Source: a virus. From it: a stretch of 42,971 nucleotides of DNA. The DNA lies in IMG/VR virus record IMGVR_UViG_3300030202_002133, positions 1 through 42,971 of that record, one strand, 5' to 3'. A program made the translations under genes and the position numbers. Below are positions 3,170 through 38,748 of this stretch, one piece after another. The notes under the pieces were generated by a model. It saw only the letters and a list, made by a program, of their open reading frames with translations. It did not search any database and had not been told where the DNA came from. How positions within the stretch are numbered: position 1 is the stretch's first letter; each line of letters opens with the position of its first letter.

Positions 3170-3204
3170 TATATTATCCATTAGTAATCGTATTTATTTT
3201 GTAA
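3170..3204 (-). promoter_or_regulatory. early promoter-like element, copy C
   Basis: Minus strand: TTACAAAATAAATAC, 10 variable bases, GGATAATATA. Ends 13 nt before the start codon at 3156. It differs from the consensus by one base (A for C) in the upstream block. Confidence 0.7.
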
Positions 3205-3689: not shown

Positions 3690-3724
3690 TATATTATCCG
3701 TTAGTAATCGTATTTTGTTTGTAT
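3690..3724 (-). promoter_or_regulatory. early promoter-like element, copy D
   Basis: Minus strand: ATACAAACAAAATAC, 10 variable bases, GGATAATATA. Ends 19 nt before the ATG at 3670. Its upstream edge touches the stop codon of the micropeptide gene at 3724-3789, so no bases are wasted between the operons. Confidence 0.72.
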
Positions 3725-5223: not shown

Positions 5224-5258
5224 TATATTATCCAATACTAGTCGTATTTTGTTTGTAT
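5224..5258 (-). promoter_or_regulatory. early promoter-like element, copy E
   Basis: Minus strand: ATACAAACAAAATAC, 10 variable bases, GGATAATATA. It precedes the 42-residue gene starting at 5191 and the downstream operon containing the lipoprotein. It lies directly beside the tRNA-like hairpin. Confidence 0.72.
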
Positions 5259-5648: not shown

Positions 5649-5683
5649 TATATTATCCATTATTATCAGTATTTAGTTTGTAA
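5649..5683 (-). promoter_or_regulatory. early promoter-like element, copy F
   Basis: Minus strand: TTACAAACTAAATAC, 10 variable bases, GGATAATATA. It precedes the startless frame 5366-5611, which argues that this frame is or was a gene. Confidence 0.68.
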
Positions 5684-5956: not shown

Positions 5957-5991
5957 TATATTATCCAAATGTATTAGTATTTAGTTTGTAA
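5957..5991 (-). promoter_or_regulatory. early promoter-like element, copy G
   Basis: Minus strand: TTACAAACTAAATAC, 10 variable bases, GGATAATATA. It is the outermost copy, facing left from the divergent control region, and precedes the 51-residue gene. It shares the bases ATGTAACAA immediately downstream with copy F, which suggests duplication of promoter plus leader. Confidence 0.72.
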
Positions 5992-6487: not shown

Positions 6488-6709
6488 ATGAGAACAAGAA
6501 ACAACCCATTACCAGGTCTTTGCAAGAATTCACCGATGAAAAACAAGTTAGAGCTTGTAGATCATACACCGAAACCAAAAACAGGTACAGTATCTACTGG
6601 TGGCGGAGTTGGGCTACTTGTTGATTCAGCTAAAAAAACATTTGCAGGTTATGGTAAAACAAACCCACAAATAGTAAAAGATGCTAGAATGATGCCTGGT
6701 AAAATATAA
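6488..6709 (+). CDS. small basic protein with NSPMK signature
   Basis: A 73-residue basic protein, MRTRNNPLPGLCKNSPMKNK..., with a glycine-rich middle (GTVSTGGGVGLL). The N-terminal SPMK block is a variant of the SPVK signature found in the genes that follow. No family recognised. It is the first gene of the rightward structural transcription unit. Its TAA shares a base with the next ATG (TAATG), so the first two genes are probably translationally coupled. It may be a minor virion or DNA-associated protein. Confidence 0.65.
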   Translation: MRTRNNPLPGLCKNSPMKNKLELVDHTPKPKTGTVSTGGGVGLLVDSAKKTFAGYGKTNPQIVKDARMMPGKI

Positions 6710-6939
6710 TGCAAAAACTTACCCCTACCGCAAGACGTATGAAGGCTATTCGTGATAAACGAGCAGCAATGACACCAGAAAGACGTAAAAAGAAAGCAGA
6801 AAATCAACGTAAAAGACGTGAGGCTGAAAAAAATGGCAAAAACATTAAGGGTAAAGACTACGATCATAAAGATGGTAAGTTTAAGTCTGTAAAAGCAAAC
6901 CGTGGTAATGACGGTAAAGGAACTAAAAACGAAGGATAA
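6709..6939 (+). CDS. very basic protein, faint HNH-like C-terminus
   Basis: A 76-residue protein whose first half is an extremely basic helix (TARRMKAIRDKRAAMTPERR, followed by KKKAENQRKRREAEK). The second half reads KGKDYDHKDGKFKSVKANRGNDGKGTKNEG. The D-H-x-x-G...N-R-G-N-D-G pattern recalls the metal-binding part of HNH nucleases, but the first histidine and zinc cysteines are not apparent, so I do not call it a nuclease. Strong DNA or RNA binding is likely from composition alone. Confidence 0.65.
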   Translation: MQKLTPTARRMKAIRDKRAAMTPERRKKKAENQRKRREAEKNGKNIKGKDYDHKDGKFKSVKANRGNDGKGTKNEG

Positions 6940-6957
6940 TTATAAAAAATATATAAC

Positions 6958-7224
6958 ATGTCATATGAAATGAAAAAATCCCCTATCAACAAAGGGTACG
7001 CATCAAAACCATCACCTGCTAAGCTAGCACCAGTGATACTAGGCGCGATATATGGTGGTCTTGCATCTGGTGCAGTTGGAGCTGGGTCAGCGGCAATACA
7101 AGGAGCTGCATCAAGAAAAGCAGCAAAAAACCAAGCCCATGAACTATCAAAAAGCGAAGCAAGACAAAATATCACGACGTCAATGCAAGGTAAAGTTGGT
7201 GGCGGGTCAAGACTTATTGATTAA
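6958..7224 (+). CDS. small protein with SPxxK signature and Gly/Ala hydrophobic segment
   Basis: 88 residues: MSYEMKKSPINKGYASKPSPAK at the N-terminus carries two SPxxK/SPxK blocks, followed by a Gly/Ala-rich hydrophobic segment (LAPVILGAIYGGLASGAVGAGSAAIQGAA) and a basic, polar tail. This layout (basic tag, then a GxxxG-rich helix) recalls small virion proteins that cross or contact membranes during ejection. That is inference. It is one of five N-terminally signed small proteins in this block. Confidence 0.65.
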   Translation: MSYEMKKSPINKGYASKPSPAKLAPVILGAIYGGLASGAVGAGSAAIQGAASRKAAKNQAHELSKSEARQNITTSMQGKVGGGSRLID

Positions 7225-7250
7225 TAGTATAATAATAAAAACACGTTGCT

Positions 7251-7769
7251 ATGTATAAAATGAAAGGATTCACATACCCTGGTAAATCACCTGTTAAATT
7301 ATTCGGGATAGGTGAAAGAAAAAAAGCTGAAAAAGAAGCTGCTTACGCGGCCAAAGCAGAGGCTAGTGAAAAGTGGAGAGCCGCTATGGACACAAAAAGT
7401 GATGGTACCAGTATAGTTGCAGGAAACAATCCAAAGTACGGGGAAGTACCAACGATGAAAAAAGGTCCTATATTACAAACACCAACATCTTTACCAATAC
7501 AACCAGCGCAACCACTACCAGTTTCTACACCTGGACCGGTAATGCCTGGTAAACAAGCGGTGCCAACAGGGGGAATGAGTGATTCAAATGCAACACTTGG
7601 GCATAAGCTTGGTGAAGCATGGGATTCACAAAAAGCAAATATAATTGGTCAAGCTACTGGAGCGTTAGTTAAAGGAGCAATAGGATTTTTAACAAGAAAA
7701 AAAGAAAAACCAAAAAGACCAACTGGTATTGCAAGAGGCTTTAGCAGTGTTAAAATAGGTAAAAGTTAA
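7251..7769 (+). CDS. small virion-like protein with MKG...GKSPVK signature
   Basis: 172 residues, starting MYKMKGFTYPGKSPVKLFGIGERKK and continuing with an Ala/Lys helix. A proline-rich linker (about 75-110: LQTPTSLPIQPAQPLPVSTPGP) leads to a C-terminal segment with NIIGQATGALVKGAIGFLTRKKEK, another Gly/Ala hydrophobic helix followed by lysines. The start is shared in style with the next two family members. No known family. The modular form suggests a tagged, perhaps packaged, protein. Confidence 0.68.
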   Translation: MYKMKGFTYPGKSPVKLFGIGERKKAEKEAAYAAKAEASEKWRAAMDTKSDGTSIVAGNNPKYGEVPTMKKGPILQTPTSLPIQPAQPLPVSTPGPVMPGKQAVPTGGMSDSNATLGHKLGEAWDSQKANIIGQATGALVKGAIGFLTRKKEKPKRPTGIARGFSSVKIGKS

Positions 7770-7795
7770 AAATAAATAAATAAAAATTAGAAATT

Positions 7796-8104
7796 ATGGA
7801 AAAAACACCATTTAAAATGAAGGGATATTCCTATGCTGGAAAGTCACCAGTGAAAGACGACAAAGAGTTTCCAGGACTTTTACCAGAAGTAACCGTATCT
7901 GGAGGTAAAAAAACAGTGCCAGGAAGCTTTATTCAAGATGAAAGAGGTTCGTCTGTAGCTGGATCATCTGTAGAGCACGCTAACTTAAGAAAGAAACAGA
8001 AGAACCGAGATAAAAAACTTACTTCCTCAGAAGAAGCTAAACTTAAAAGTCTAAATGCTAAAACTCAAAAAGCTTATTGGGCGCAAGAAAGATTCAAAAA
8101 ATAG
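7796..8104 (+). CDS. small protein with FKMKG...GKSPVK signature
   Basis: 102 residues. The first 20 (MEKTPFKMKGYSYAGKSPVK) are nearly the same as the N-termini of the neighbours at 7251 and 8569. After them comes a unique hydrophilic body with LPEVTVSGG and a Lys/Arg-rich C-terminal helix (KKQKNRDKKLTSSEEAKLKS). No family recognised. The conserved start joined to unrelated bodies suggests the signature is a sorting or binding tag. Confidence 0.68.
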   Translation: MEKTPFKMKGYSYAGKSPVKDDKEFPGLLPEVTVSGGKKTVPGSFIQDERGSSVAGSSVEHANLRKKQKNRDKKLTSSEEAKLKSLNAKTQKAYWAQERFKK

Positions 8105-8150
8105 GGAAAGACCCTAGACCAAGTCAATATTAACCAAAAAAACCAAAAAA

Positions 8151-8444
8151 ATGACTTATTTATACTACAAGACTAGTACAATGACTAGCAATGTTAAACC
8201 GAATGAAAAAACTATTAACCAATGGACGCATCTAGCAGACAAAAGTAACTGGCGTATTACACAGTTACCTAACGGTTTTTATCAAACTGAAGTAAATGAC
8301 CCAGAATCTGATAAAAATTGGCATGATGTTACCAGAAGAGAAACCATAGAAGGCGCTGAAGCTGCAATTGACGGAAGCGTTGACCATTTCTCAAAGAAAT
8401 TAGAGGCTACAAAAGGCCCAAAAGTGGTAAAAACATTCGAATAG
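8151..8444 (+). CDS. hypothetical protein
   Basis: 97 residues, without the SPVK signature of its neighbours. The sequence has an aromatic beta-like part (NWRITQLPNGFYQTEVND) and an acidic helix. Two in-frame ATGs are possible (8151 and 8181). I keep 8151 because it follows a long A-rich leader like those of neighbouring genes. Its stop overlaps the GTG of the next small gene (TAGTG). Function unknown. Confidence 0.62.
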   Translation: MTYLYYKTSTMTSNVKPNEKTINQWTHLADKSNWRITQLPNGFYQTEVNDPESDKNWHDVTRRETIEGAEAAIDGSVDHFSKKLEATKGPKVVKTFE

Positions 8445-8557
8445 TGAACAAATTGAAGAAAGTAGGGTTCATAGTTCTAGGATGGACAGGTGTAATAGTA
8501 ACATTTATACTATATTACCTAGCTATAGCCCCACTTTTTTTAATATTTAACAAATAA
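8444..8557 (+). CDS. single-span membrane protein with GTG start (37 aa)
   Basis: GTG at 8444 to TAA at 8555-8557, reading MNKLKKVG then a long hydrophobic segment FIVLGWTGVIVTFILYYLAI ending FNK. A positively charged N-terminus and one membrane helix. It overlaps the previous stop by one base (TAGTG), which supports reinitiation. A small holin-associated or spanin-like membrane protein is conceivable, but the holin candidate is elsewhere (12279). Confidence 0.52.
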   Translation: MNKLKKVGFIVLGWTGVIVTFILYYLAIAPLFLIFNK

Positions 8558-8568
8558 ACACAAAAATC

Positions 8569-9147
8569 ATGGCAGGACCATTTAAAATGAAAGGATCACC
8601 GTTTCAAAGAAATTTTGGAATTGGATCATCTCCAGTTAAACAAGGATTAAAAAAAGAACTTAAGCAATTGAAAAAAACTACAGGGCCAGAGCCAAAGCCA
8701 ACTCTAGATAAAAATAAGAATAGGATACCTGATACGGTTGAATCAATTGAATCAAAACAAGGTCATATAGAAAAACCACCAAAAAAGAAAAAAGTAAGTA
8801 GATCACCTAGATTACCTAGATTACCTGAATCACCTGTATCACCTAAAGCGCGAAAAGAACCAATTACAAAACCGGTTCCTAAAATAAATATGCCAAAAGG
8901 GTTTGCGCCTAATATTTCTGACGAGCAAAGAGCAAAATCAAAAGGAACTTTAAAAGGAAAAACTGGATTTGAGTTCGATGTAGTTGATCCTGTTAAAAGT
9001 AAACTTATGCGAGTTGTAAGTAAGGTGGCTCCTAAAACACAACGTGTGACTCAAGAGATGGTAGATGCGCGAAAGAAGCGGACCGATGCGGAAAGTAAGA
9101 AAGTTCCATTGGGTAAAAAGGTTAAAGATTATTTTACTAAGAAATAA
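8569..9147 (+). CDS. basic proline-rich protein with two SPVK-type blocks
   Basis: 192 residues, starting MAGPFKMKGSPFQRNFGIGSSPVK. The central part is rich in Ser-Pro/Lys-Pro (SRSPRLPRLPESPVSPKARK), resembling the S-P-x-K/R repeats by which histone H1 tails bind the minor groove of AT-rich DNA. The C-terminus is lysine-rich (KKVKDYFTKK). The body is low-complexity and probably disordered. The block FGIG beside SPVK is shared with the gene at 7251. It may condense DNA or act as an internal virion protein. No family recognised. Confidence 0.68.
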   Translation: MAGPFKMKGSPFQRNFGIGSSPVKQGLKKELKQLKKTTGPEPKPTLDKNKNRIPDTVESIESKQGHIEKPPKKKKVSRSPRLPRLPESPVSPKARKEPITKPVPKINMPKGFAPNISDEQRAKSKGTLKGKTGFEFDVVDPVKSKLMRVVSKVAPKTQRVTQEMVDARKKRTDAESKKVPLGKKVKDYFTKK

Positions 9148-11840: not shown

Positions 11841-12269
11841 ATGGCGTTCAAACTAGGAAAAAATAGAGGCAACTATGCTGTTAATGGCGAAATTAAAACA
11901 AAGATGCGTTTTGGCAATCAATCTGGCGATGCTGACGTGTCTGTGCCTGGAACACCTGTTATTAGGACAAAACTAGCTAAAGGTATATTAGGCGAGGCTA
12001 ATATGGATGGAAGTATATATATTAGTGATAAACTAGAACCCGGTAGCTATCAAGAAAGACAAACTATTATGCATGAAATGAGGCATGCTACCGATATGAG
12101 ATTAGGTAAGTTAGAGTATGGAGATAACTACATAAAATATAACGGTGAAACTTTTCCGAGAGAAACTAGAAGAGGTAAAGATATGATATTAGTAGAGGGA
12201 GAATGGATGGAAGCTGGTGATGGAGATTTTCCTTGGGAAATGGACGCAAATAATGGCAATAAACACTAA
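11841..12269 (+). CDS. putative small zinc metallopeptidase (HEMRH motif)
   Basis: 142 residues. H78-E-M-R-H82 followed by ATD fits the zincin motif HExxHxxD, in which two histidines bind zinc and the glutamate is catalytic. A further acidic cluster (EGEWMEAGDGDFPWEMDA, about 119-136) could supply another ligand; the spacing of PWE to an aspartate recalls other phage HExxH proteins. The N-terminal MAFKLGKNRGNYAVNG is basic and recalls the tagged small proteins upstream. Possible roles are virion protein processing or a cell-wall step. It could be inactive. Confidence 0.6.
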   Translation: MAFKLGKNRGNYAVNGEIKTKMRFGNQSGDADVSVPGTPVIRTKLAKGILGEANMDGSIYISDKLEPGSYQERQTIMHEMRHATDMRLGKLEYGDNYIKYNGETFPRETRRGKDMILVEGEWMEAGDGDFPWEMDANNGNKH

Positions 12270-20729: not shown

Positions 20730-22244
20730 ATGGCAATTACAAGTGCAACGGCTGCAAATTTGACACCTTCACCGGTGAAAAAAGCGCTAGCTAGCAATTA
20801 CATGGACTTCGCTGGAGGTACTAATGGATGGGCAGATCAATATCTACCAGACGTTATGGCTAAAGAGGCAGAAGCTTATGGAAACAGAACGATGGCAGGA
20901 TTCCTAAGACAAGTTGGTGCTGAGGAAGCAATGCAAGGAGACCAAGTTATTTGGTCAGAACAAGGTAGATTACACCTAGCTTACAAAGGTCACGTAGACG
21001 CATCTGCGAATACTGGAGCTACTGTTGGTGGTGTTTCTGCAACAAACGCGGGTGGTGTTCTAGAAATAGAGCAAGACATCGATGGTAGAGCAATAACTAC
21101 AACGCATGGTATTAGACAAAATGATATTTTATTAATCGCTGATTCTAATACTACAGCTACAGTTTTAGTAACTTCTGACCCTGTTGGATCAGAAACTTTT
21201 GACGTAGTTCTTTATGACGCTGGAAATGACACAGCAACTTTAGCAAACGCTGGTTTTGCTGCTGGATCTGATGGTGACACTACTTTAACTATATTAGTTA
21301 TTGGTTCTGAATTTAAGAAAGGGGACAATGGTAGAACTGGACAAAACGAACCAGATCACAAAACTTATTCTAACAAACCAATTATCTTAAAAGATAAATA
21401 TGCTGTATCAGGTTCTGATACTGCTCAAATTGGTTGGGTAGAAGTTTCTAGTGAAGATGGTACTGGAGGTTACTTATGGTATGTTAAAGCTGAAGCTGAA
21501 ACTAGAATGAGATTTAACGATTACTTAGAAATGTCAATGTTGGAAACTATTCCAACTGATTCTTCTTCATCTTTAGTTGACTCTTTCTTAGGTAACACTG
21601 GTGGTGCTGATGGTACTACTGGTCACCAAGGTCTGTTTAACGCTATTTCAACTAGAGGTAATCAAACTTCTGGTGTTACTGGTGTTAACGCTGCTACTGA
21701 TTTAGCTGAGTTTGACGCTATTTTAGCAGAGCTTGATAAGAATGGTGGTATTGAAGAAAACATGATGTTTGTAAATAGAGCTACTGCTTTAGCAATAGAT
21801 GACATGTTAGCTTCTATGAATTCTTACGGAGCTGGTGGTACTTCTTACGGAGTATTTGACAACTCAGAAGACATGGCATTAAACTTAGGATTCTCAGGAT
21901 TCCGTAGAGGTTCTTACGATTTCTATAAGTCTGATTGGAAATATTTAAACCAGTTAGACGGAAGAGGTGGTATAAACGCTACTGATACGGTTAATGCAAT
22001 TAGAGGAGTTATGGTACCAGCTGGTACATCTTCAGTATATGACCAAATGTTAGGTAGAAACTTAACACGTCCGTTTTTACACGTTAGATATAGAGCTTCA
22101 CAAACTGATGACAGATACCTAAAAACTTGGGTTACTGGTTCGGTTGGAGCTGCTACTTCTGATTTAGATGCGATGGAGGTACATTATTTATCTGAAAGAT
22201 GTTTAGTTACTCAAGGAGCGAACAATTTCTTCTTAATGAACTAA
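20730..22244 (+). CDS. major capsid protein
   Basis: 504 residues directly after the scaffold candidate. Recognisable regions: EAEAYGNRTMAGFLRQVGAEEAMQGDQVIWSEQGR near 48-82 (N-arm and E-loop region), a Thr/Asp/Val-rich inserted beta domain around 105-200, and a C-terminal part ending CLVTQGANNFFLMN. Thr/Ala/Gly composition and codons ending in T suggest high expression. It would form the icosahedral shell (HK97 fold expected). The N-terminus contains LTPSPVKK, a chance or real echo of the small-protein signature. A strong terminator follows. Confidence 0.85.
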   Translation: MAITSATAANLTPSPVKKALASNYMDFAGGTNGWADQYLPDVMAKEAEAYGNRTMAGFLRQVGAEEAMQGDQVIWSEQGRLHLAYKGHVDASANTGATVGGVSATNAGGVLEIEQDIDGRAITTTHGIRQNDILLIADSNTTATVLVTSDPVGSETFDVVLYDAGNDTATLANAGFAAGSDGDTTLTILVIGSEFKKGDNGRTGQNEPDHKTYSNKPIILKDKYAVSGSDTAQIGWVEVSSEDGTGGYLWYVKAEAETRMRFNDYLEMSMLETIPTDSSSSLVDSFLGNTGGADGTTGHQGLFNAISTRGNQTSGVTGVNAATDLAEFDAILAELDKNGGIEENMMFVNRATALAIDDMLASMNSYGAGGTSYGVFDNSEDMALNLGFSGFRRGSYDFYKSDWKYLNQLDGRGGINATDTVNAIRGVMVPAGTSSVYDQMLGRNLTRPFLHVRYRASQTDDRYLKTWVTGSVGAATSDLDAMEVHYLSERCLVTQGANNFFLMN

Positions 22245-25462: not shown

Positions 25463-28400
25463 ATGCCAGAAATTAAGCGTACTTTTACCGGTGGTAAAAT
25501 GAATAAAGATCTTGACGAGAGACTTGTTCCAAACGGGGAATATAGAGATGCAATGAATGTTGAGGTATTGACTTCGGAAGGATCTAACGTTGGTACTATT
25601 CAAAATATATTAGGTAACACTTTTGGATGTCAAGATTCATTATCTGGAATTGGTCATACTGTAGGGTCTGTTTCTGACGAGCGTAACGATACATTATATT
25701 GGTTTACTACTGATACGCGAAGTGACGCAAAAAAATTATCACCTAAATCGCTTTTATCAGGTCTTACAGATAGTCCTATAGTAAGTATAGGCGATATTTT
25801 AGATGATACTGGGGTCTCATCTAACAGTCTTTATGATAGCAGTGGTGATTATACTGGTGATTTCTTTTCTTTTAAAGATGCAATAAGACGTAAAAAAAAT
25901 AATAATTGTGAAAACGTTTTTATAGATGTTTATGGTTTTATAACGCTTATTCCACCTGGTAATAATTTCAACGTATCCGAAATAGATAATTTACCAGAAG
26001 AAGTACTTCAAATGGTAAAAGAAGGTTGGCGTGTAACAGCTACAAATGAACTTGGAAACGCAGTTAATACTGTTACTGTTACTGGGCAAGATTATTTAGC
26101 TGAAATTCCGTTTCAAATAGGATATGATCCTGGCGTGCAAAGTTTTGGAGGCGTAGCAAACGGCGGTTTTCTTGGGTTGGCTAGTGCTGGTGGTAAAGGA
26201 GCAAATGATCCAATAACGTTTTCTTTAACTGACAGTCCAAATATTATTTATTTGCCAGAAAATGCTTTTTCAGGCGCAGGTTTTGGTGGTTTTAGTGGAC
26301 CTCCTCCTGCTGGGGCAGATATTGAGTTGAGTCACACAGCTTATACTTCAGTGGGTGGTATTATAACTAAACCCAATACAACCGTAATTTCATCGCAAGT
26401 TGTTGTTGTTGAATACAACGATGGTACTGCTCAACATTTAATGGAAATAGAATTATCTGATGAGTTTGTTACGGGATTTGATACTTGGTGGAACTCTAAC
26501 GTGCAATCAACATACACAATTGCAGGTGGTGGTAATACAGACGCCATGATTAACAGTACTGCATCAACATGTGCAAATCAAACAAGCCGTTTAGATAATG
26601 GTAACTCTGGAGTAAGCGGATCATATACGGTTTTTACAAACTACACTATATCTACTCCTTTTGGAACTCCTAATGGAAATTTAATTTTTGATGATATATG
26701 GGAGAATACAGTAACTAGTTGGGATGTTGGAGATGCGTTTGCTGCAAGTGGTTTATATCCTAACGGAGGTTTTATAGGTTCAGTATCGAATTCTAGCCCC
26801 TGGATTGTTACACCAGTAGATGATAATGGTGATTTACTTCAGCCATACATGCCTTCTCCTCATCTTATGTACACAACTGGATCTATATCGGTCGGGTCTC
26901 AAGACGTGGGTACCATTTATTTTGACCAACAACTTCAAATAAATTCAAACCCACCTAGTGGAGGTGGAAAACCTACTGCTCTTGTTTTTTCTTCTAATGA
27001 AAATAGAGTTTTAAGATTTAATCAAAATAATATTGTAAACGGTATAAATATTATTGACGATATGTTAATGTGGACTGACGGAGAAACGGAACCAAAAAAA
27101 ATAAATATATCACGTAGTATAAGAGGTACAGACGAGTCAGGTAATAGGCATACTAGACTTGTTAATGACAGCATAAACCTAGGACTAGACATTCCATCAC
27201 AAAACCATGATGTGTTGATAAAAGAAGAGCACATAACGGTTATTAAACAATCACCTATACTTCCTCTTTCTTTAGAATTTAGCACTGGTAGAAACGACGA
27301 GTGGGATCAATCTGTACCAATGACTATATCAAGTGACACTAACGTTGCAATGTCTTCTTTTATAGACTCAAGTGCAGATAATAATATTTATAATTTTTCT
27401 AATATTAATGCGGGTGATAGTTTTAGAGTAGAACTTCCTGTTAATGTTGACGGGGAAGATACGTTTGATTTAGTTGATTTAGCTGGACAACCGTGGAAAA
27501 ATGGAACAGAGGTTGTTTTAAGAGAGTATAATACTAGTGGGGAAATAACAATACCGGTTAGGGATTTTAGGGCTAAAGGCCATATAGGATCTTGGAGTGG
27601 TAACAAATCAAGCGCAACTACTGGTGATCCAGCAAGGTTAGAAATTGTAATTGATTTTACAGATCATAACTTACGAACCGCACCAGATGGCGGTACCCTT
27701 ACGTATATTATAGATATTGCTGATAATTCATCAAACTTATTTGAATTTAAATTTCCTAGATTTTCTTATAGATATAAATACGAAGATGGCGAGTATTCTA
27801 CTTTTGCACCGTTTACAGAAGTTGCTTTTCTTCCTGGAAATTTTGAGTTTCATCCCAAAGAAGGTTATAACCTAGGAATGACAAATTCTTTAAAGTCACT
27901 TACATTAAAAGATTTTAACACAGTCTCTACACCACCCGATGTAGTAAGTATTGATATATTATATAAAGATGATCAATCAACTAACGTGTATGTTGTTGAT
28001 ACTATAAAGCCAAAAGATGAGGTAACACCCAACCCATGGAACGAAAATTCTTACACTGTAACAAGTGATATTATACATAGAATATTACCATCAAACCAAC
28101 TTTTAAGATCTTTTGATAACGTGCCAAGAAAAGCATTAGCACAGGAAATTGTAGGTAATAGAATTGTTTATGGTAATTATACACAAGGGCATGATTTAAC
28201 ATTTGGTGGAGTAGACGTTTACCCAAATTTTGTGCATTCATTAACCACAATTGACAGTGATATTAAATCTATAAAGTCATTAAGAGAATACCAGCTAGGC
28301 GTTGTTTTTGTAGATGACTTTGGAAGAGAAACCCCTGTAGTAACAAATAAAAGCGCTAGTTTTAGGGTTGATAAAAATAATGCTGACAAAAAAAATAAAC

Positions 28401-31400
28401 TAAACGTTTCTTTTACGGGTAGCGGTGTGCCTAGTCATATGAAATATTTTAAGTTTTATATAAAAGAAACATCAGGAGAATACTATAATATGGCTATGGA
28501 CCGTTGGTATGATGCTGAGGATGGTAGTGTTTGGTTATCGTTTGCCTCTTCTGACAGAAATAAAGTAGACATTGATACGTTTTTAATATTAAAAAAAGGT
28601 CTTGAATCTGGTAGCTTAGTAACTGATCCGGCTAGATATAAAGTTTTAGCAATAGAAAACGAAGCACCTGATTTTATTAAAACAACAATGTTTAACTGTG
28701 GAGAAATAAAACAAACTCACAACAACTTTAAGCTATTTGAAAACGGTTTAGATGGCGCCCCTGTTGTTGGTACAAATATTTTTCAAGGTGATTTAAAAAG
28801 ATTTGGAAACTCTAGCTTAAGTAGATTAGACGATTTAATTGTTGATCATGATATTTATGTTGATTTTTATGTTGATGATGGTACCGACATTGCTACGCAA
28901 AAATACAGAATAACAAATTGCTCTAAAGACGAGGTAGATAAAGACGTTCTGCCACTCAATCATGGAACTCATAAATTTACATTTACTATAGATGGGTATT
29001 TTGAAGAAGATTTAAATAGAATATTTAATGGATCCGCGTCGTCCCCAACGGAAGTAAAAGATAATGTAGTCGTGCGCTTTTATAAGGGTATAGCAGAAAA
29101 CGCTCCTAGATTTGATGGTAAATTTTTTGTAAAAATACACGCCGAAGGAAGTGCTTTTAGTGGTGAAATTGAAGATGTGGATGTACAAACTATAGATCCA
29201 AAAAAATTTACAACACGCTTGTCTCAAAAAATATACTATTTAGCACCAGACCATAAAGATCGTCATGAAAGCACGTATGATTTTACCGCTTTTGGTGATG
29301 AAGACTATGTTAAAGACCTTTGTGTAAACACTCAACTTGGCGTTTTAGCAACCGTAGCAACGGCTGGAAGTGGGATTGTTAACTTTGATCTTGCGGATAA
29401 AATGGGAAACAATAAAGTTATTGACACTGCTTTTTATATCCAACAAACATACAACACGTTTTCACTTGCTGGAGCACCGTGGTACAGCCTGAATAGTGGG
29501 CTTATAAAAGTTCCAGTAAATTACCAAGCATTTAGAGCTTATTTTAAGAACTCAATTACGGATTTGTGGGAGTCTCAAAATAATATATTAGACGCAGGTG
29601 GGACAGATGCAAAATCAGACAAAACATTAGCGGTGCAAATGGATAGTGCAACTTCATACTACAAGGCCTCTGTATTGTTTGGAATTCAAGATGATGGTAA
29701 AATGAGAAACGTTGATTCAAATTTTGGATTTGAAGATGTTATGTTTATAGATCAAGGCCCTTTTATAAATACAAATGGATTTTTTAATGACAAGTGGAGA
29801 AGGGATGGTTTTGGTAACGATTGGGCAACAGCACAGAGCAACACTAGAAATGGTATAGTAAATTATAATTCTGCAAACGAAGGTCGTATGGAATTAGCGT
29901 TTGGACCTGTAGCCCCTGAATTTGGCTTACCTTATGAAGATAAATCTTCAGGCGCTAGAATACTAGGGTCTAATGAACATATGAAATGGGAAAAAGCTCA
30001 AGAAGATTTTTGGAATTTTGAATCAGAACAAAGACAACGCTATGCCGGTACTCAAAAAGCAAAACTTTTTAGCAAGTTAAGCTCGGGTACTAAGTTTAGG
30101 TGGAAAGAAGATCCTACTAAAACTATTTACACTGTGTTTAAAGATTTTCAAGATAGTGGTAGAAATAGATATTCTGGATCTGGAAAGCACAATGGTTTTG
30201 TTTCTAATGCATTAAATACTATAGATTTTTCGTCATCAACAAATGCTACTGAATATAAATCAAAGTATGCAATTGGTGGCTATCAACAAAGTAGGATAGA
30301 TCAACCTTTTTATTGGGCAGGTGAAAATTTTTCAAAATCTAGAAGACTTAAGTTTTTTCCGCGCATGGAGTGGGAACCAACAATGCAAGGAGTTGAAGGT
30401 CCAATTACAAATGGCTTGTATGTAGATAAAAGTAAAGTAGGGTCTGCTGCAGCTACTAATATTTTTAGCGCGACAAACCAATGGACTAACACTACTTTTT
30501 CTATTCATAAACAATATTTTGAGAACACAAGAGATACTTCTAATGGTGGTTTTGATCCTATTGAAATAAGTGTAGGTATGTTACTAACACATGTAATACA
30601 AAGTAGTGGTGCTGCAATCACTAATCTTACTGATAGTAATGGAGAGCTGCTAAAAGGTGGTTATTTAATAAAAAACATTACACGGCCAGCCGCTGGTTCT
30701 AATCTCTATACAATAGAATTTGAAGGTTATACTTCTATATTTTCTTCAACAACACCAAACACAGAGCCGGCTAGCAATGTTAATGGTTTCAATAGCGTTG
30801 ACAGCGGGGCGTTAGCATTAATATTTCAACAACCAGCTATGAACGGGTTAAGTGTTAACTCCGTTAAAAACGTTTTAAATACTTACAGTGTTTCTGGTAA
30901 TAGAATTGGTATTGGCGCCGTAGGTTATACTATAGAGGTTGTTGAAGAAATAAGAGAAAACAAAACAATGCCAACCAACCCAGCGATATGGGAAACAGAG
31001 CCTAAAGAATCTACAGATTTAGATATATACTATGAAATTAGCGCTAAAAATCCAATTCAATTAAACGAAGACACAATTAATGCGGCGCTACCTATAAGAT
31101 CAAACGTATCATTCCGTAATGGTATAGCTATATTAAACAATGATGAAAATCCTATTACTATCGATGCTTATTCACCACCTGTTAGTGATACTATTATTAT
31201 TTCAGATCTTATTTGCGGTAACAATAACAATAACCCTTGTATAGACGCTAATGGCAACTCTATACCTCAGTTACAAATTGGTGATCAAATAATAGTTAAC
31301 AAGCCAGATGGAACAATAACCTATGTTACAGTCAAAGACATGGTACCAGATGATACTGACGCTGATAAAACAAGAATAATACAAATTGAGCGTAATCTAT

Positions 31401-34400
31401 ATAATAACAATCATATTTTAGGATGGCATAATTGTTATTCATTTGGAAATGGTGTTGAGTCAAATAGAATTAGAGATAATTTTAATTTACCATTTATTTC
31501 CAATGGTGTAAAAGCATCTATAACTGTAGAAGATTTCCCAAGAGAAGAGCAGAGAAAATATGGTTTAATATACTCTGGTATTTACAACTCTAACACTGGG
31601 GTTAATAATTTAAATCAGTTTATAATGGCTGAAAAAATTACCAAAGACATAAACCCTACTTACGGTAGTATTCAGAAATTATACACTAGAGATTCTGACT
31701 TACTTACATTATGCCAAGATAAAGTGTTAAAAATATTAGCTAATAAAGATGCTGTATTTAACGCTGACGGCAATCCACAATTAACAGCTACAGAAAATGT
31801 TTTAGGACAAACAATTCCATTTGGTGGTGAATACGGTATATCTGATAATCCAGAATCATTTGCATCGGAGGCATATAGAGCTTACTTTACAGACAAGGTA
31901 AGAGGTGTTGTTTTAAGACTATCAAAAGATGGTTTAACACCAATATCTGAAGCTGGAATGAAAGATTGGTTTAGAACTAATTTAAAGCTTAGTAAAAATC
32001 TTATTGGTAGTTATGACGATAGAAATGACGAATATAACATAACAGTAGCCGGTACTGTTAATAAAACAGTTTCTTTTAGTGAAAAAGTTAGAGGATGGGT
32101 TAGTTTTAAATCATTTGTACCTGAAAACGCTATTAGTTGTGCTAACGAATACTACACGTTTAAAAACAGTAGAGTGTGGAAACATCATTCAGAGTTTGAA
32201 GTAGATGGAACTACTAATGTTCCTAGAAATACATTTTACGGTGAGCATACGCCATCTAGTTTTAATGTTATATTTAATGAAAGCCCTAGCGTTGTTAAAT
32301 CTTTTAAAACTCTTAACTACGAAGGTTCACAAGCTAAAATAGATAAATTAGAATCTTATCAGATATATTTACCTGGAACTATAGATCCGGTAACTGGAGT
32401 GGGGATTGTTCATCCAAATGCAATTAGTCCAATAAGCGATGGTGAGTATTATAACTTACACAATAGAAACGGTTGGTATGTAGATAATATAGAAACAGAT
32501 CTAGAAAAAGGTAGTTTAAATGAGTTCATAGAAAAAGAAGGCAAGTGGTTTAATTATATAAAAGGCATAACTGACTCAGTAACGACTTTAGGTACGCTTT
32601 TAGGTGATTTTGATAGTAGTGATAGTTCTTTTCAAGGTTTAGGTAGGTTAACCGCCTCTCCACAGATTGCTAGCTTTAGCGGTTGTACCGATTCCGCGGC
32701 AACAAATTATGATATAAACGCTGTTGTAGATGATGGATCGTGTATAGACCCTATTTTAGGTTGTATGGATAATTTAGCTCAAAACTATAACGTAGCGGCT
32801 AACATTGATGATGGCTCGTGTTTATATCCTGGGTGTAATCATCCCGCGGCGTTTAATTACGATCCAAACGCAAATGTTAACGATGGTTCGTGTGTGCCGT
32901 TTATTTACGGGTGTACTGATAACTTATCTGTTCAGTTTTTTGATAAGGATGGTAATCTTATAGGTACCTTCGCTGCGTTTGTTAACTTTGATAACACCGC
33001 AAACACAGCTTGTGATGCTAGTGGAACTGCAGCGGGTAATAATGAATGTTGTATTGCGGCTGTACTTGGTTGTACAGATCCAACTGCGAACAACTACAGC
33101 ACGTCAGCAAATACTGATGATGGATCATGTGAATTTCCTGTAAACGGTTGTATAGATAGTACTGCTTGTAATTTTGATTCCTCAGCCAATGTTGATGATG
33201 GTTCTTGTTTATATTGTGGTGATATAGATGCGGACAACTATGATGGGGCAGACGCAAGTTGTACAACTAATTGTTTAACGTGTAGCTTCTTTGATAATTC
33301 TTTCTTAAGTTGGTCTTCGATGAATCCAAACCCTACAGATACAACGCTAGAAGTAATGTGGGAGAATTATGTTGGCGCGGGATTTGTTGATATTACAAAT
33401 GTTTTATATGAATTAAGATATAGAGTTAGCGGAACATCTACTTGGATTGTATCACCTTCTATAACACCTGCAACAACTGGTACAAACACATATACAATAC
33501 AAAACTTAGCACAAAACACTTCTTATGAAATTCAATTAAGATCAGTTTGTACCACAACAACATCTGATTGGAGCCCATCTGTAACTCTTCAAACAGAGAT
33601 TACTCAAATTTATGGCTGTACAGACGCAACTGCAACTAACTACGATGTAACGGCTACGACAGACGATGGTTCATGTACTTATCCTGTTTATGGGTGTACA
33701 GACCCATCAGCTCTAAACTATAACGTGTCTGCTAATACTGATGATGGTTCATGTACTTACTGTGTATATGGTTGTACAAATAACACAATGTTTAATTATG
33801 ATGCTTTAGCAACATGTGATGATGGATCTTGTATTCCAGTTATTAATGGATGTACTGATGCATCACAATATAACTACAACTCTACAGCAAACACTGATGA
33901 CGGAAGTTGTGAGCCTTATGTTTATGGTTGTACAGATAGTAGCATGACAAATTATGATCCAAACGCAAACACATCTGATGGTTCGTGTATTCCATTTGCT
34001 TATGGATGTATGGATCCACTTGCTTGTAATTATGATTCAACAGCTAACACCGACGACGGCTCGTGTCTTGTGTGTAGCGCTAGTAATATCGTAACTGTTA
34101 ACGTATCAGGAGTTTTTGCAGAAACAAACGGTGTTGTTTATAATGATCAAGTAACTCCTGTTTGGAATGTTGTTTTACCAGATAACTCTACAGGTCATAG
34201 GGTAAAATACAAAAAAAGCAGTGATCCTAATTCAGCTTGGGTTCTAATGACAGGACTTCCAGCCGGTGATGGCTCTGTTGCTATTAATCATCTTTTTGAA
34301 GAAAATGAAGATTATGACTTTAGAATAAAAACAACGTGTGGTACTTGTAGTAGCAGTTGGTCACCAATAACAACTATAAACATTGGGCCTTACATGGGTT

Positions 34401-34822
34401 GTACGGATCCAGCTGCGGATAATTATACACCTGGCGCTAGCGTTGACAATGGCTCGTGTAACTATACAACTTTAGGTTGTATGTGGATATACGCTGATAA
34501 CTACGATCCAAATGCAAACACGGTATCATTTGCTCAATGTACTTTTACTGCTGGAGCGATGGGATGTGCAGATCCAAATAACTGCCCTGGTTGTAACCAA
34601 TCTCCTCCTACATACAGTAATTATTATGATTATCACCCTGACTTTACCGATAATAGTAATTGTCACGCATTTTCTTATGGATGTACAGATCCAACTGCTA
34701 CTAATTATTTCTCAACAGCTATGGTTGATGATGGATCTTGTATTTACTTGGGTTGTACAGATCCAACGGCAACAAATTACGACTCTACGGCTACTGTAAA
34801 TGATGGTTCATGTACTTATTAA
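25463..34822 (+). CDS. giant tail/receptor-binding protein with Cys-rich repeats and FN3-like domains
   Basis: 3119 residues in one unbroken frame. The N-terminus (FTGGKMNKDLDERLVPNGEYRDAMNVEV) fits the tail-stabilisation proteins of podovirus-like phages and would anchor it to the virion. Residues about 2407-3119 hold 17 units of the pattern GCTDPxAxNYDxxAxxDDGSC (14 canonical, 3 degenerate), in three blocks split by two fibronectin-III-like domains (about 2608-2712 and 2873-2977). The DDGSC loops suggest calcium binding, and paired cysteines suggest disulfides. Such repeats are common on flavobacterial surface proteins, so this stalk probably contacts the host surface. Confidence 0.85.
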   Translation: MPEIKRTFTGGKMNKDLDERLVPNGEYRDAMNVEVLTSEGSNVGTIQNILGNTFGCQDSLSGIGHTVGSVSDERNDTLYWFTTDTRSDAKKLSPKSLLSGLTDSPIVSIGDILDDTGVSSNSLYDSSGDYTGDFFSFKDAIRRKKNNNCENVFIDVYGFITLIPPGNNFNVSEIDNLPEEVLQMVKEGWRVTATNELGNAVNTVTVTGQDYLAEIPFQIGYDPGVQSFGGVANGGFLGLASAGGKGANDPITFSLTDSPNIIYLPENAFSGAGFGGFSGPPPAGADIELSHTAYTSVGGIITKPNTTVISSQVVVVEYNDGTAQHLMEIELSDEFVTGFDTWWNSNVQSTYTIAGGGNTDAMINSTASTCANQTSRLDNGNSGVSGSYTVFTNYTISTPFGTPNGNLIFDDIWENTVTSWDVGDAFAASGLYPNGGFIGSVSNSSPWIVTPVDDNGDLLQPYMPSPHLMYTTGSISVGSQDVGTIYFDQQLQINSNPPSGGGKPTALVFSSNENRVLRFNQNNIVNGINIIDDMLMWTDGETEPKKINISRSIRGTDESGNRHTRLVNDSINLGLDIPSQNHDVLIKEEHITVIKQSPILPLSLEFSTGRNDEWDQSVPMTISSDTNVAMSSFIDSSADNNIYNFSNINAGDSFRVELPVNVDGEDTFDLVDLAGQPWKNGTEVVLREYNTSGEITIPVRDFRAKGHIGSWSGNKSSATTGDPARLEIVIDFTDHNLRTAPDGGTLTYIIDIADNSSNLFEFKFPRFSYRYKYEDGEYSTFAPFTEVAFLPGNFEFHPKEGYNLGMTNSLKSLTLKDFNTVSTPPDVVSIDILYKDDQSTNVYVVDTIKPKDEVTPNPWNENSYTVTSDIIHRILPSNQLLRSFDNVPRKALAQEIVGNRIVYGNYTQGHDLTFGGVDVYPNFVHSLTTIDSDIKSIKSLREYQLGVVFVDDFGRETPVVTNKSASFRVDKNNADKKNKLNVSFTGSGVPSHMKYFKFYIKETSGEYYNMAMDRWYDAEDGSVWLSFASSDRNKVDIDTFLILKKGLESGSLVTDPARYKVLAIENEAPDFIKTTMFNCGEIKQTHNNFKLFENGLDGAPVVGTNIFQGDLKRFGNSSLSRLDDLIVDHDIYVDFYVDDGTDIATQKYRITNCSKDEVDKDVLPLNHGTHKFTFTIDGYFEEDLNRIFNGSASSPTEVKDNVVVRFYKGIAENAPRFDGKFFVKIHAEGSAFSGEIEDVDVQTIDPKKFTTRLSQKIYYLAPDHKDRHESTYDFTAFGDEDYVKDLCVNTQLGVLATVATAGSGIVNFDLADKMGNNKVIDTAFYIQQTYNTFSLAGAPWYSLNSGLIKVPVNYQAFRAYFKNSITDLWESQNNILDAGGTDAKSDKTLAVQMDSATSYYKASVLFGIQDDGKMRNVDSNFGFEDVMFIDQGPFINTNGFFNDKWRRDGFGNDWATAQSNTRNGIVNYNSANEGRMELAFGPVAPEFGLPYEDKSSGARILGSNEHMKWEKAQEDFWNFESEQRQRYAGTQKAKLFSKLSSGTKFRWKEDPTKTIYTVFKDFQDSGRNRYSGSGKHNGFVSNALNTIDFSSSTNATEYKSKYAIGGYQQSRIDQPFYWAGENFSKSRRLKFFPRMEWEPTMQGVEGPITNGLYVDKSKVGSAAATNIFSATNQWTNTTFSIHKQYFENTRDTSNGGFDPIEISVGMLLTHVIQSSGAAITNLTDSNGELLKGGYLIKNITRPAAGSNLYTIEFEGYTSIFSSTTPNTEPASNVNGFNSVDSGALALIFQQPAMNGLSVNSVKNVLNTYSVSGNRIGIGAVGYTIEVVEEIRENKTMPTNPAIWETEPKESTDLDIYYEISAKNPIQLNEDTINAALPIRSNVSFRNGIAILNNDENPITIDAYSPPVSDTIIISDLICGNNNNNPCIDANGNSIPQLQIGDQIIVNKPDGTITYVTVKDMVPDDTDADKTRIIQIERNLYNNNHILGWHNCYSFGNGVESNRIRDNFNLPFISNGVKASITVEDFPREEQRKYGLIYSGIYNSNTGVNNLNQFIMAEKITKDINPTYGSIQKLYTRDSDLLTLCQDKVLKILANKDAVFNADGNPQLTATENVLGQTIPFGGEYGISDNPESFASEAYRAYFTDKVRGVVLRLSKDGLTPISEAGMKDWFRTNLKLSKNLIGSYDDRNDEYNITVAGTVNKTVSFSEKVRGWVSFKSFVPENAISCANEYYTFKNSRVWKHHSEFEVDGTTNVPRNTFYGEHTPSSFNVIFNESPSVVKSFKTLNYEGSQAKIDKLESYQIYLPGTIDPVTGVGIVHPNAISPISDGEYYNLHNRNGWYVDNIETDLEKGSLNEFIEKEGKWFNYIKGITDSVTTLGTLLGDFDSSDSSFQGLGRLTASPQIASFSGCTDSAATNYDINAVVDDGSCIDPILGCMDNLAQNYNVAANIDDGSCLYPGCNHPAAFNYDPNANVNDGSCVPFIYGCTDNLSVQFFDKDGNLIGTFAAFVNFDNTANTACDASGTAAGNNECCIAAVLGCTDPTANNYSTSANTDDGSCEFPVNGCIDSTACNFDSSANVDDGSCLYCGDIDADNYDGADASCTTNCLTCSFFDNSFLSWSSMNPNPTDTTLEVMWENYVGAGFVDITNVLYELRYRVSGTSTWIVSPSITPATTGTNTYTIQNLAQNTSYEIQLRSVCTTTTSDWSPSVTLQTEITQIYGCTDATATNYDVTATTDDGSCTYPVYGCTDPSALNYNVSANTDDGSCTYCVYGCTNNTMFNYDALATCDDGSCIPVINGCTDASQYNYNSTANTDDGSCEPYVYGCTDSSMTNYDPNANTSDGSCIPFAYGCMDPLACNYDSTANTDDGSCLVCSASNIVTVNVSGVFAETNGVVYNDQVTPVWNVVLPDNSTGHRVKYKKSSDPNSAWVLMTGLPAGDGSVAINHLFEENEDYDFRIKTTCGTCSSSWSPITTINIGPYMGCTDPAADNYTPGASVDNGSCNYTTLGCMWIYADNYDPNANTVSFAQCTFTAGAMGCADPNNCPGCNQSPPTYSNYYDYHPDFTDNSNCHAFSYGCTDPTATNYFSTAMVDDGSCIYLGCTDPTATNYDSTATVNDGSCTY
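32681..34819 (+). repeat. 17-unit coding repeat, about 70-80 bp each
   Basis: Encodes the GCTD...DGSC units of the giant tail protein. Unit spacing is mostly 72-81 bp. DNA copies differ strongly from each other in third codon positions, so the array is old or maintained at the protein level. The last two units are among the closest to the protein consensus. Confidence 0.85.
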
Positions 34823-34838
34823 TATATAAACAATAATT

Positions 34839-37318: not shown

Positions 37319-37741
37319 ATGGAAAATATAATAATAAGACCTATAAAAGAGGAAGATTATCAATTTATTGATAAATGGTGGCAACAAATAGACAAAGCAC
37401 CTCCACCTAGAAGTTTATTACCAGAAAATGGCTTACATGGACTTATGGCCTGCAAAAATAACAAACCTATAGTTTGTACTTATTTATACTTAACAAACTC
37501 TAAGTTTGGTTATGCAGATTATATGATAAGTGATAACAGTTACAAAGGAAGAGACAGATTTGATATAATATTAAAACTAATGAACATGTGTATTGGGACT
37601 GGTTTTAAATTAGGTTGTGAGGATTTTTGGTTTGTAACAAAAAATAAAGGTGTGTTAAAAAGATGTAGAGCTCTTGGAGCAAAAGTTTCAGAAGATCCAT
37701 ATTATTTAATATGCTCTTCAAATTCAAAAAAAGAAATATAA
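37319..37741 (+). CDS. GNAT-like acetyltransferase-fold protein
   Basis: 140 residues with the order of a GNAT domain: beta1 IIIRPIKEEDYQFIDKWW, a LHGLMACKNNKPIVCTYLYL strand pair, a YMISDNSYKGRDRFDIILKLMNMCI helix at the acetyl-CoA loop position and FWFVTKNKGVLKRCRALGAK (motif B-like). The usual Q/R-x-x-G-x-G/A loop is degraded (SYKGRD), so activity is doubtful. GNAT-like proteins occur among ejected virion proteins (T7 gp13 is one often cited case), which fits its place before the internal-virion-like genes. Confidence 0.65.
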   Translation: MENIIIRPIKEEDYQFIDKWWQQIDKAPPPRSLLPENGLHGLMACKNNKPIVCTYLYLTNSKFGYADYMISDNSYKGRDRFDIILKLMNMCIGTGFKLGCEDFWFVTKNKGVLKRCRALGAKVSEDPYYLICSSNSKKEI

Positions 37742-37743
37742 AT

Positions 37744-38748
37744 ATGGCAAAAAACAAAAACAAACAACCTAGCCCTTTTCACAAAGGAAAAGACAGAGGA
37801 GAAGGTGACTATAAGCAAAGCTACGGACAAAGCTTAATGAGTAACATTCAATACGGCCCATTTGCTGGTGTAAAAGCCATGATGGATATGGAAAAATATG
37901 GAGACGACGAGTGGGGTATTAAAGCTGCACAAGCAGATATGGATAGGTCTTTTAGTGATTTTCAAAAATTAAAAGGTGGTGCTGGTGAAAACTTATGGGC
38001 TGGAGCTAAAAATTTAATTGATGTTGAAAATTATTTTGGTGATGTGAAAAAAACAGTAGGTGGTATGGAAAACGTAATGGACGATCTTACTGGTGGTGTT
38101 TCTGAGCAAATAAAGTTTGAAAGAGACATGGCAGCGCAACAAAATGTTAACACTATGGATGCTCTTAGAGGTGGTGGTGGTGGTTCTGGTGCAGCGGCAT
38201 TAGCACAGTCGATGTCTGGTATTCAAGCTCAGCAACGACGAGATCTTGGCGGGAGAGTTGGGGAAACAACCGCTAAAGTTGAAATGGCAAAAGCACAACA
38301 AGCGGCTAATTTACAACAAATGGAAGTTGCTGCGGTTACACAAGAAGCACAATCGCGAACGCAAATGGATTTAGCTCAAGACCAAGGGGCGATGGAAGCT
38401 CAAAAATTTCAACTACAAGGAGAAGCTGACGCAAGAGAATTACAAATACAAATGCAACAAGCGGAATTATCTTATTTAGCTGGACTTAAAGAGTCTGCTG
38501 AAGCAAATAAAGATGCAGATACAGCTGGTAAATCTGACCGTAGATTAAAAAAGAATATTACAAAAATAGGTAAGTCAAATAGTGGATTAAATATATATTC
38601 TTTTGAGTATAAAAATCCAGCACATGGCGTGGGATTATTCCAAGGAGTTATGTCTGATGAAGTACCACAAGAAGCTGTTATTGATAGCGGTGATTGGTAT
38701 GACTTAGTAAACTATAGTGTGTTAGACGTAGAATTTAAACAAATATAA
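37744..38748 (+). CDS. Gln/Ala-rich virion protein with C-terminal S74 auto-chaperone domain
   Basis: 334 residues from ATG at 37744 (an upstream in-frame ATG at 37711 overlaps the GNAT gene and is less likely). The N-terminus has KQPSPFHKGKDRG, an echo of the SPxK signature. Residues about 130-250 are a Gln/Ala/Met helix (AKAQQAANLQQMEVAAVTQE), as in T7-type internal core proteins. Residues 264-334 (SDRRLKKNITKIG...LNIYSFEYKN...GVMSDEVPQ) match the intramolecular chaperone of the peptidase S74 family, which cleaves itself before the Ser of SDRRLKK. S74 usually ends tail spikes, so its place on this helical protein is unusual. Confidence 0.72.
   Translation: MAKNKNKQPSPFHKGKDRGEGDYKQSYGQSLMSNIQYGPFAGVKAMMDMEKYGDDEWGIKAAQADMDRSFSDFQKLKGGAGENLWAGAKNLIDVENYFGDVKKTVGGMENVMDDLTGGVSEQIKFERDMAAQQNVNTMDALRGGGGGSGAAALAQSMSGIQAQQRRDLGGRVGETTAKVEMAKAQQAANLQQMEVAAVTQEAQSRTQMDLAQDQGAMEAQKFQLQGEADARELQIQMQQAELSYLAGLKESAEANKDADTAGKSDRRLKKNITKIGKSNSGLNIYSFEYKNPAHGVGLFQGVMSDEVPQEAVIDSGDWYDLVNYSVLDVEFKQI

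Follow-up and report, generated by a model that had tools for sequence, protein, structure and literature searches.

The DNA considered here, which we call the window, is the whole 42,971-nucleotide stretch of IMG/VR virus record IMGVR_UViG_3300030202_002133 (positions 1 to 42,971), and our subject is a short N-terminal signature, the "tag," that recurs on a cluster of small genes at 6488-9147 on its + strand. The early region of the window runs leftward (1-6 kb) and the late region rightward from 6488, with the tagged cluster as its first part; all open reading frames (ORFs) were called mechanically. The late region opens with a small basic protein of 73 amino acids (aa) (6488..6709, +; N-terminus MRTRNNPLPGLCKNSPMK), which carries the variant LCKNSPMK at residues 11-18. 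It is followed by an untagged small basic protein (6709..6939, +; 76 aa; isoelectric point, or pI, 10.8), a homolog of the gp080-type virion protein of phages phi40:1 and phi38:1. The match to phi40:1 gp080, which is annotated as a "structural protein" from experimental tandem mass spectrometry (MS/MS), is at 55% identity (E=5e-18). An 88-aa basic protein (6958..7224, +; N-terminus MSYEMKKSPINKG..KPSPAK) has the variant MKKSPINKG..KPSPAK, then a Gly/Ala-rich segment. The remaining tagged proteins of the cluster are of 172 aa (7251..7769, +; N-terminus MYKMKGFTYPGKSPVK; YKMKGFTYPGKSPVK), 102 aa (7796..8104, +; N-terminus MEKTPFKMKGYSYAGKSPVK; PFKMKGYSYAGKSPVK; no relatives in a search for related loci), and 192 aa (8569..9147, +; N-terminus MAGPFKMKGSPFQRNFGIGSSPVK; PFKMKGSPFQRNFGIGSSPVKQ). 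The last of these has a tag closely similar to one in another genome (G022; labels in G or L are our own handles), on an apparently unrelated body. Besides 6709-6939, the signature is missing from one further ORF of the cluster, a conserved protein (8151..8444, +; 97 aa; pI 6.3) whose family is present in 14 genomes.

Three more genes of the late strand bear forms of the signature or a stretch similar to it. A metallopeptidase-like protein with an HExxH motif (11841..12269, +; 142 aa; pI 5.9) has an FKLG form, the major capsid protein (20730..22244, +) has TPSPVKKAL in its N-terminal arm, and an S74-type virion or ejection protein (37711..38748, +; phrog_6121, virion structural protein) has the variant QPSPFHK; an internal ATG at 37744 yields MAKNKNKQPSPFHKGKD. 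An earlier note on this DNA had described a family of small basic proteins. Every N-terminus it quoted is present, including PSPFHKGKD in the S74-type protein, and the five tagged cluster proteins are indeed basic (pI 9.9-10.5), but both the S74-type protein (pI 5.3) and the HExxH protein are acidic. The note overlooked the FKLG form, the TPSPVKK at the capsid protein N-terminus, and the homology of 6709-6939 to an MS-detected virion protein.

The signature is far more frequent than chance would have it. Within the first 45 aa of late-strand ORFs of the window, SPxK occurs five times (one of these being the major capsid protein) against a shuffle mean of 0.40 (maximum 2 in 200), and [FY]KMKG three times against 0.01; on the early strand SPxK is absent from the same segment. 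The same was seen in 16 records picked by their capsid protein, taken together with the window, a sample that (the window excepted) is free of tag-selection bias: on the late strand SPxK was found 29 times against 3.95 (maximum 10), capsid arms making up 4 of the 29, and FKMKG 12 times against 0.02. Early-strand SPxK in these records was at chance level (4 vs 2.8), and the control motifs TPxK, SPxE, and PSxK were flat. The reversed control KxPS was raised (13 vs 4), an excess due at least in part to tags that include this motif, KMKGPSLY being an example. Overall, 112 of 1144 late ORFs carry the tag, whereas only 4 of 469 ORFs on the opposite strand do (P=6e-13).

A search of viral contigs with a PFKMKG DNA pattern returned at least 118 stretches, and in many of these, small proteins with the tag are encoded. 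Among the matches listed, we tested 35 records, a few of them included despite a chance-like match; several records having been picked by tag DNA, tag counts per genome are biased upward. The terminase is 72-95% identical to that of the window in 31 of the 35 and a related capsid protein is present in 30, and the tag thus marks one lineage of uncultured marine phages. The nearest named phages by terminase and capsid protein are uncultured podovirus MW202828, the Flavobacterium elemo phages, and Cellulophaga phi38:1 and phi40:1, and genome-bin contigs with a related terminase are mostly, but not all, labeled Bacteroidota.

Alignment of 137 tagged proteins gives the consensus xPFKMKGxxxxxxSPxK and almost nothing beyond it. 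The tag is laid out as a first element, [FY]K[ML]K[G], and a second element consisting of S-P, a hydrophobic or small residue, K, and often Q; the spacer between them has six residues as its commonest length, with a tail of other lengths. The third position of SPxK is L, A, F, M, T, V, or I in 84 of 91 cases (28.5 expected, P=3e-34), never K or R (18.6 expected, P=9e-10), and never D or E (8.7 expected). The residue that follows is Q in 19 of the 91 cargo tags against 3.1 expected, a six-fold excess (P=2.5e-10). The glycine of KMKG is encoded by all four of its codons (22/14/10/4), which places the constraint on the protein and not on the DNA. The suggestion that the signature might be lineage noise does not hold: the tag is lineage-specific, yet it is constrained at the protein level. 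In the HExxH protein, residues 1-31 are predicted to be disordered and the core folded; the tag is probably a short, disordered N-terminal segment. When tags on unrelated bodies are compared, they are more alike within a genome (9.95) than between genomes (7.31, standard deviation 0.82). As a separate observation, a 43-44-aa protein, MP[FI]KSKKQ..W..KYH.GK[SA]PFKMKG, has the first element at its C-terminus; it was found in seven loci (L022, L030, L062, L077, L086, L092, and L117).

Behind the tag, the bodies differ. Those of the cluster, which the earlier note had called unrelated, have no BLAST similarity to one another, and the 115 bodies compared fall into 85 clusters, 71 of them with a single member. 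PHROGs and Pfam searches assign the 137 tagged proteins mostly to families without known function and gave nothing informative for the tagged proteins of the window. Among the conserved families compared, an N-terminal SPxK is absent from terminase, portal, scaffold, GroEL/ES, and the holin-like gene; the scaffold family has one FKM-type match. The 32 tail giants include one clear tag (G048) and one chance-like match.

The conserved families that do carry the tag include presumed ejection proteins. Judging from positions and sizes in relatives, these form a trio of consecutive virion genes of rising size (roughly 200-560, 270-890, and 1200-4000 aa) that follows the tail genes, and their order and sizes agree with those tabulated for T7 gp14/15/16 and P22 gp7/20/16 (PMC8954989). 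In phi40:1, the annotation of gp099-gp101 comes from MS/MS of virions. The link between our gp099-like family and phi40:1/elemo gp099 (86.5%, E=5e-6) emerges only when profiles are compared, one gp099-like protein compared with its elemo counterpart by BLAST having given nothing significant; its AlphaFold2 model is all-helical and of low confidence (predicted local distance difference test, pLDDT, 69; predicted template modeling score, pTM, 0.37). The tag is present on 8 of 28 gp099-like proteins, on the middle, gp100-like protein of G022 (NISPLKIN), and on the giant gp101-like protein of G008, G016, G036, and G048, with N-termini MSKIKSPLKQNE, MSKSTKSPLKHNE, MRKPSPLKHKE, and ..SSPLKHGD. A tree of gp099-like bodies, built with the first 45 residues excluded, calls for about six tag changes (six to six across bootstraps); its well-supported branches by themselves force two, and one sister pair (support 100/99) joins an untagged protein (G036) to a tagged one (G048). 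We also observed that gp099-like proteins start either with the tag or with a segment that is hydrophobic and Gly-rich, so that each looks like an alternative to the other (L225:18921-19772, L260:16112-17083, L249:10346-10978).

A second conserved carrier is the HExxH family, in which the first element reads FK[ML] in 16 of 18 members. The HExxH motif is retained in nearly all full-length homologs of 11841-12269. Its matches are weak, both that to MJ1213 (E=0.027) and those that a fold search with the model gave to the abylysin zymogen and to SprT-like phage models; minigluzincin and SprT-like folds are the nearest. The gene for this conserved late protein adjoins the holin-like gene, and its product might serve as an enzyme cargo, in lysis, or as a protease of maturation. 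Small Cys/Lys-rich proteins are also among the tagged conserved families. In G026, a tagged late protein (L262:3162-4040) combines SPFK at its N-terminus with a hydrophobic segment rich in Gly and a kinase-like domain (YHGDLNANN) with RIO/OspG matches; no further relatives of it were found. With a single motif on so many unrelated bodies, and with its repeated gain or loss on one and the same body, it is well supported that the tag is portable, and the earlier note's proposal to that effect stands.

What would such a tag do? We favor, as somewhat probable, the reading that it serves as an address label sending late proteins into the assembling head, where they would be packaged and from which they would probably be ejected with the DNA. 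Late proteins bearing the tag would be directed to the prohead during assembly, the tag binding a common partner there, for which the scaffold and the inner capsid face are the likeliest candidates; the carriers would end inside the mature virion and probably leave it together with the DNA, and many of them may be host-takeover or DNA-associated cargo. Packaging is favored because the tag is confined to late genes and recurs on ejection proteins, but is absent from portal, scaffold, and terminase and occurs only once on a tail protein. The peptidase-like and kinase-like proteins among the carriers, the disorder predicted ahead of a folded core, and the greater likeness of tags within a genome count in its favor as well. 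The homology of both the untagged neighbor 6709-6939 and the gp099-like family to MS/MS-detected virion proteins of phi40:1 also points this way. Should the tag prove to be a loading signal, then among the many unknown small genes of this widespread marine phage group, those whose products enter the host at infection could be recognized by a sequence rule, and the delivered set is where host-takeover and anti-defense proteins would be expected, as with the T4 internal proteins.

Several points weigh against head loading. None of the tagged proteins has itself been detected in a virion; the packaging role that the earlier note envisaged is favored by tag placement. Most gp099-like and giant proteins are untagged yet must be packaged, so the tag is not the sole packaging route. 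Lysis genes are close to some of the tagged small proteins, for which a non-virion role is possible. In the stretches examined of the cultured relatives (phi38:1, phi40:1, and elemo), late-protein N-termini have no KMKG/SPxK tag, and a tblastn search of cultured phages with the consensus tag found no match, which with so short a query is weak evidence. Finally, bacterial-bin contigs picked by terminase, which are more distant and mostly cover only 10 kb on each side of that gene, are not enriched (5 vs 3.1), so that the tag does not extend to the whole lineage; single contigs of this kind do carry it (L300 and L306).

As to the partner, the earlier note had suggested looking for the signature in related phages and in capsid and portal: relatives are enriched and the capsid arm is similar, but the portal is without it. 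Across 83 distinct capsid N-arms of the lineage (first 25 residues), the consensus is LNSVP[AS]Px[KQ]Q[TA]L; Q fills the last place of LNSVP[AS]Px[KQ]Q in 59 of the 83, and [SA]PxKQ occurs in 18 against 0.0 in shuffles. We considered the SPVK of the window's own capsid protein as a further cargo tag and set it aside, since this stretch varies in the family (VPAPQKQ, VPSHVQK) and is better regarded as a separate, similar motif. Because the S-P-x-K-Q of the tag resembles the [AS]-P-x-[KQ]-Q of the arm, the likeness suggests a common partner, five residues being a slim basis. That the tag mimics the arm, cargo and capsid protein binding the same partner (e.g., the scaffold), is an idea we consider unlikely. 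If true, it would mean plug-and-play loading, any gene being able to join by gaining about 20 codons.

Other explanations deserve a hearing. The tagged genes may be fast-diverging paralogs, descended from one small late gene duplicated in tandem, in which the N-terminus changes most slowly and does a job unrelated to packaging. Arrays of tags do lie upstream of GroEL and also where the late region ends distally, and neighboring genes can have near-identical ones (e.g., two in G036 and two in G015). However, duplication of a single gene cannot place the tag on non-homologous conserved families (ejection, HExxH, and small Cys/Lys-rich proteins), and the gain or loss of the tag on one body also speaks against it, which leaves this account improbable.

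It is doubtful, too, that the tag docks the carriers elsewhere, on the head exterior, the tail, or a late factor (the phage chaperonin, for instance, whose genes adjoin the cluster), or that the carriers act at the envelope during lysis. The proximity of tags to GroEL (9206) and GroES (10758) and to the holin-like gene (12279) suits this idea, as does the small size of many carriers, which are without known domains, but shell and tail proteins are untagged (the tail giant of G048 excepted) and ejection proteins are tagged, a choice of clients that a chaperonin tag would leave unexplained.

Least of all do we believe that S-P-x-K is a minor-groove motif for AT-rich DNA, as the earlier note had proposed, and that the carriers are genome- or nucleoid-binding proteins. 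The cluster proteins are strongly basic (pI 9.9-10.8), their bodies may touch DNA, and the tag has its S-P and its fourth-position K in common with the SPKK motif of histone tails. That motif, however, is SP(K/R)(K/R), repeated up to seven times (PMC9903204), and a third position that is K or R in 0/91 and hydrophobic or small in 84/91, together with tag forms on the acidic proteins at 37711 and 11841, led us to reject SPKK-type binding.

The rest of the window is laid out as follows. On the + strand, GroEL and GroES adjoin the tagged cluster, and the HExxH and holin-like genes are followed by terminase (14830), portal (17049), an acidic scaffold-like gene (19498), and the major capsid protein. 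Downstream of the capsid gene are the tail genes, including one for a protein of 3119 aa (25463-34822) with about 12 C-terminal repeats of 26 aa, GCTDxxAxNYDxxAxxDDGSC, in a 78-base unit mainly at 32676-34823. The presumed ejection trio (37711, 38751, and 40675 to the window end) comes after them. On the - strand, the early region contains a glutaredoxin gene (1581-1973) and seven copies of TACAAAnnAAATACnAn8GGATAATA (969-1000, 2593-2624, 3172-3203, 3692-3723, 5226-5257, 5651-5682, and 5959-5990), 0.03 being expected; these are probably phage early promoters.

Among known systems, Callevirus (Cellulophaga phi38:1 and phi40:1) and Elemovirus (elemo) are similar to the window in core gene order, with homologous terminase and capsid protein, and phi40:1 has the gp080-type virion protein in common with it. 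Since 6709-6939 resembles gp080 and the product of the 11399 gene matches phi40:1 gp078, the zone upstream of terminase is partly common to both. Between phi40:1 gp077 and the product of 11087 there is no similarity. The difference lies in the late N-termini, which in the stretches examined are untagged there and tagged here. A Bacteroidota phage, crAss001, stores cargo proteins in its capsid (gp45, gp46, and RNA-polymerase-related proteins), and C1 (gp45) binds the portal; the passages on this cargo name no shared targeting motif, and the words "signal" and "targeting" are absent from the text (PMC10172136).

By order and size, some tagged proteins appear to be counterparts of T7 gp14/gp15/gp16 and P22 gp7/gp20/gp16. 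Here, however, the tag is optional and is also found on many accessory proteins, and we know of no shared N-terminal tag among the T7 and P22 ejection proteins. The closest parallel is the capsid targeting sequence (CTS) of T4, without any claim of homology. In T4, the gp21 prohead protease cleaves it off; no prohead protease was recognized here in general scans of the genes, which did not include a dedicated search for one. Among the T-even internal proteins, which differ widely, the CTS alone is conserved (PMC3012670), its first ten residues suffice for its function, and fusions to it are packaged and delivered (PMC9026906). As on T4 IPI-III, which are otherwise diverse basic proteins packed into the head and ejected (PMC3012670, PMC9026906), a short N-terminal sequence is common to unrelated bodies here. 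The string FKMKG was absent from the literature searched. If head loading is indeed its role, the tag would represent a distinct type of capsid targeting signal, found in phages other than the T4-like ones, and a means of introducing proteins into these heads; it differs from the T4 CTS in sequence, in phage group, and in its build of two elements with S-P-x-K.

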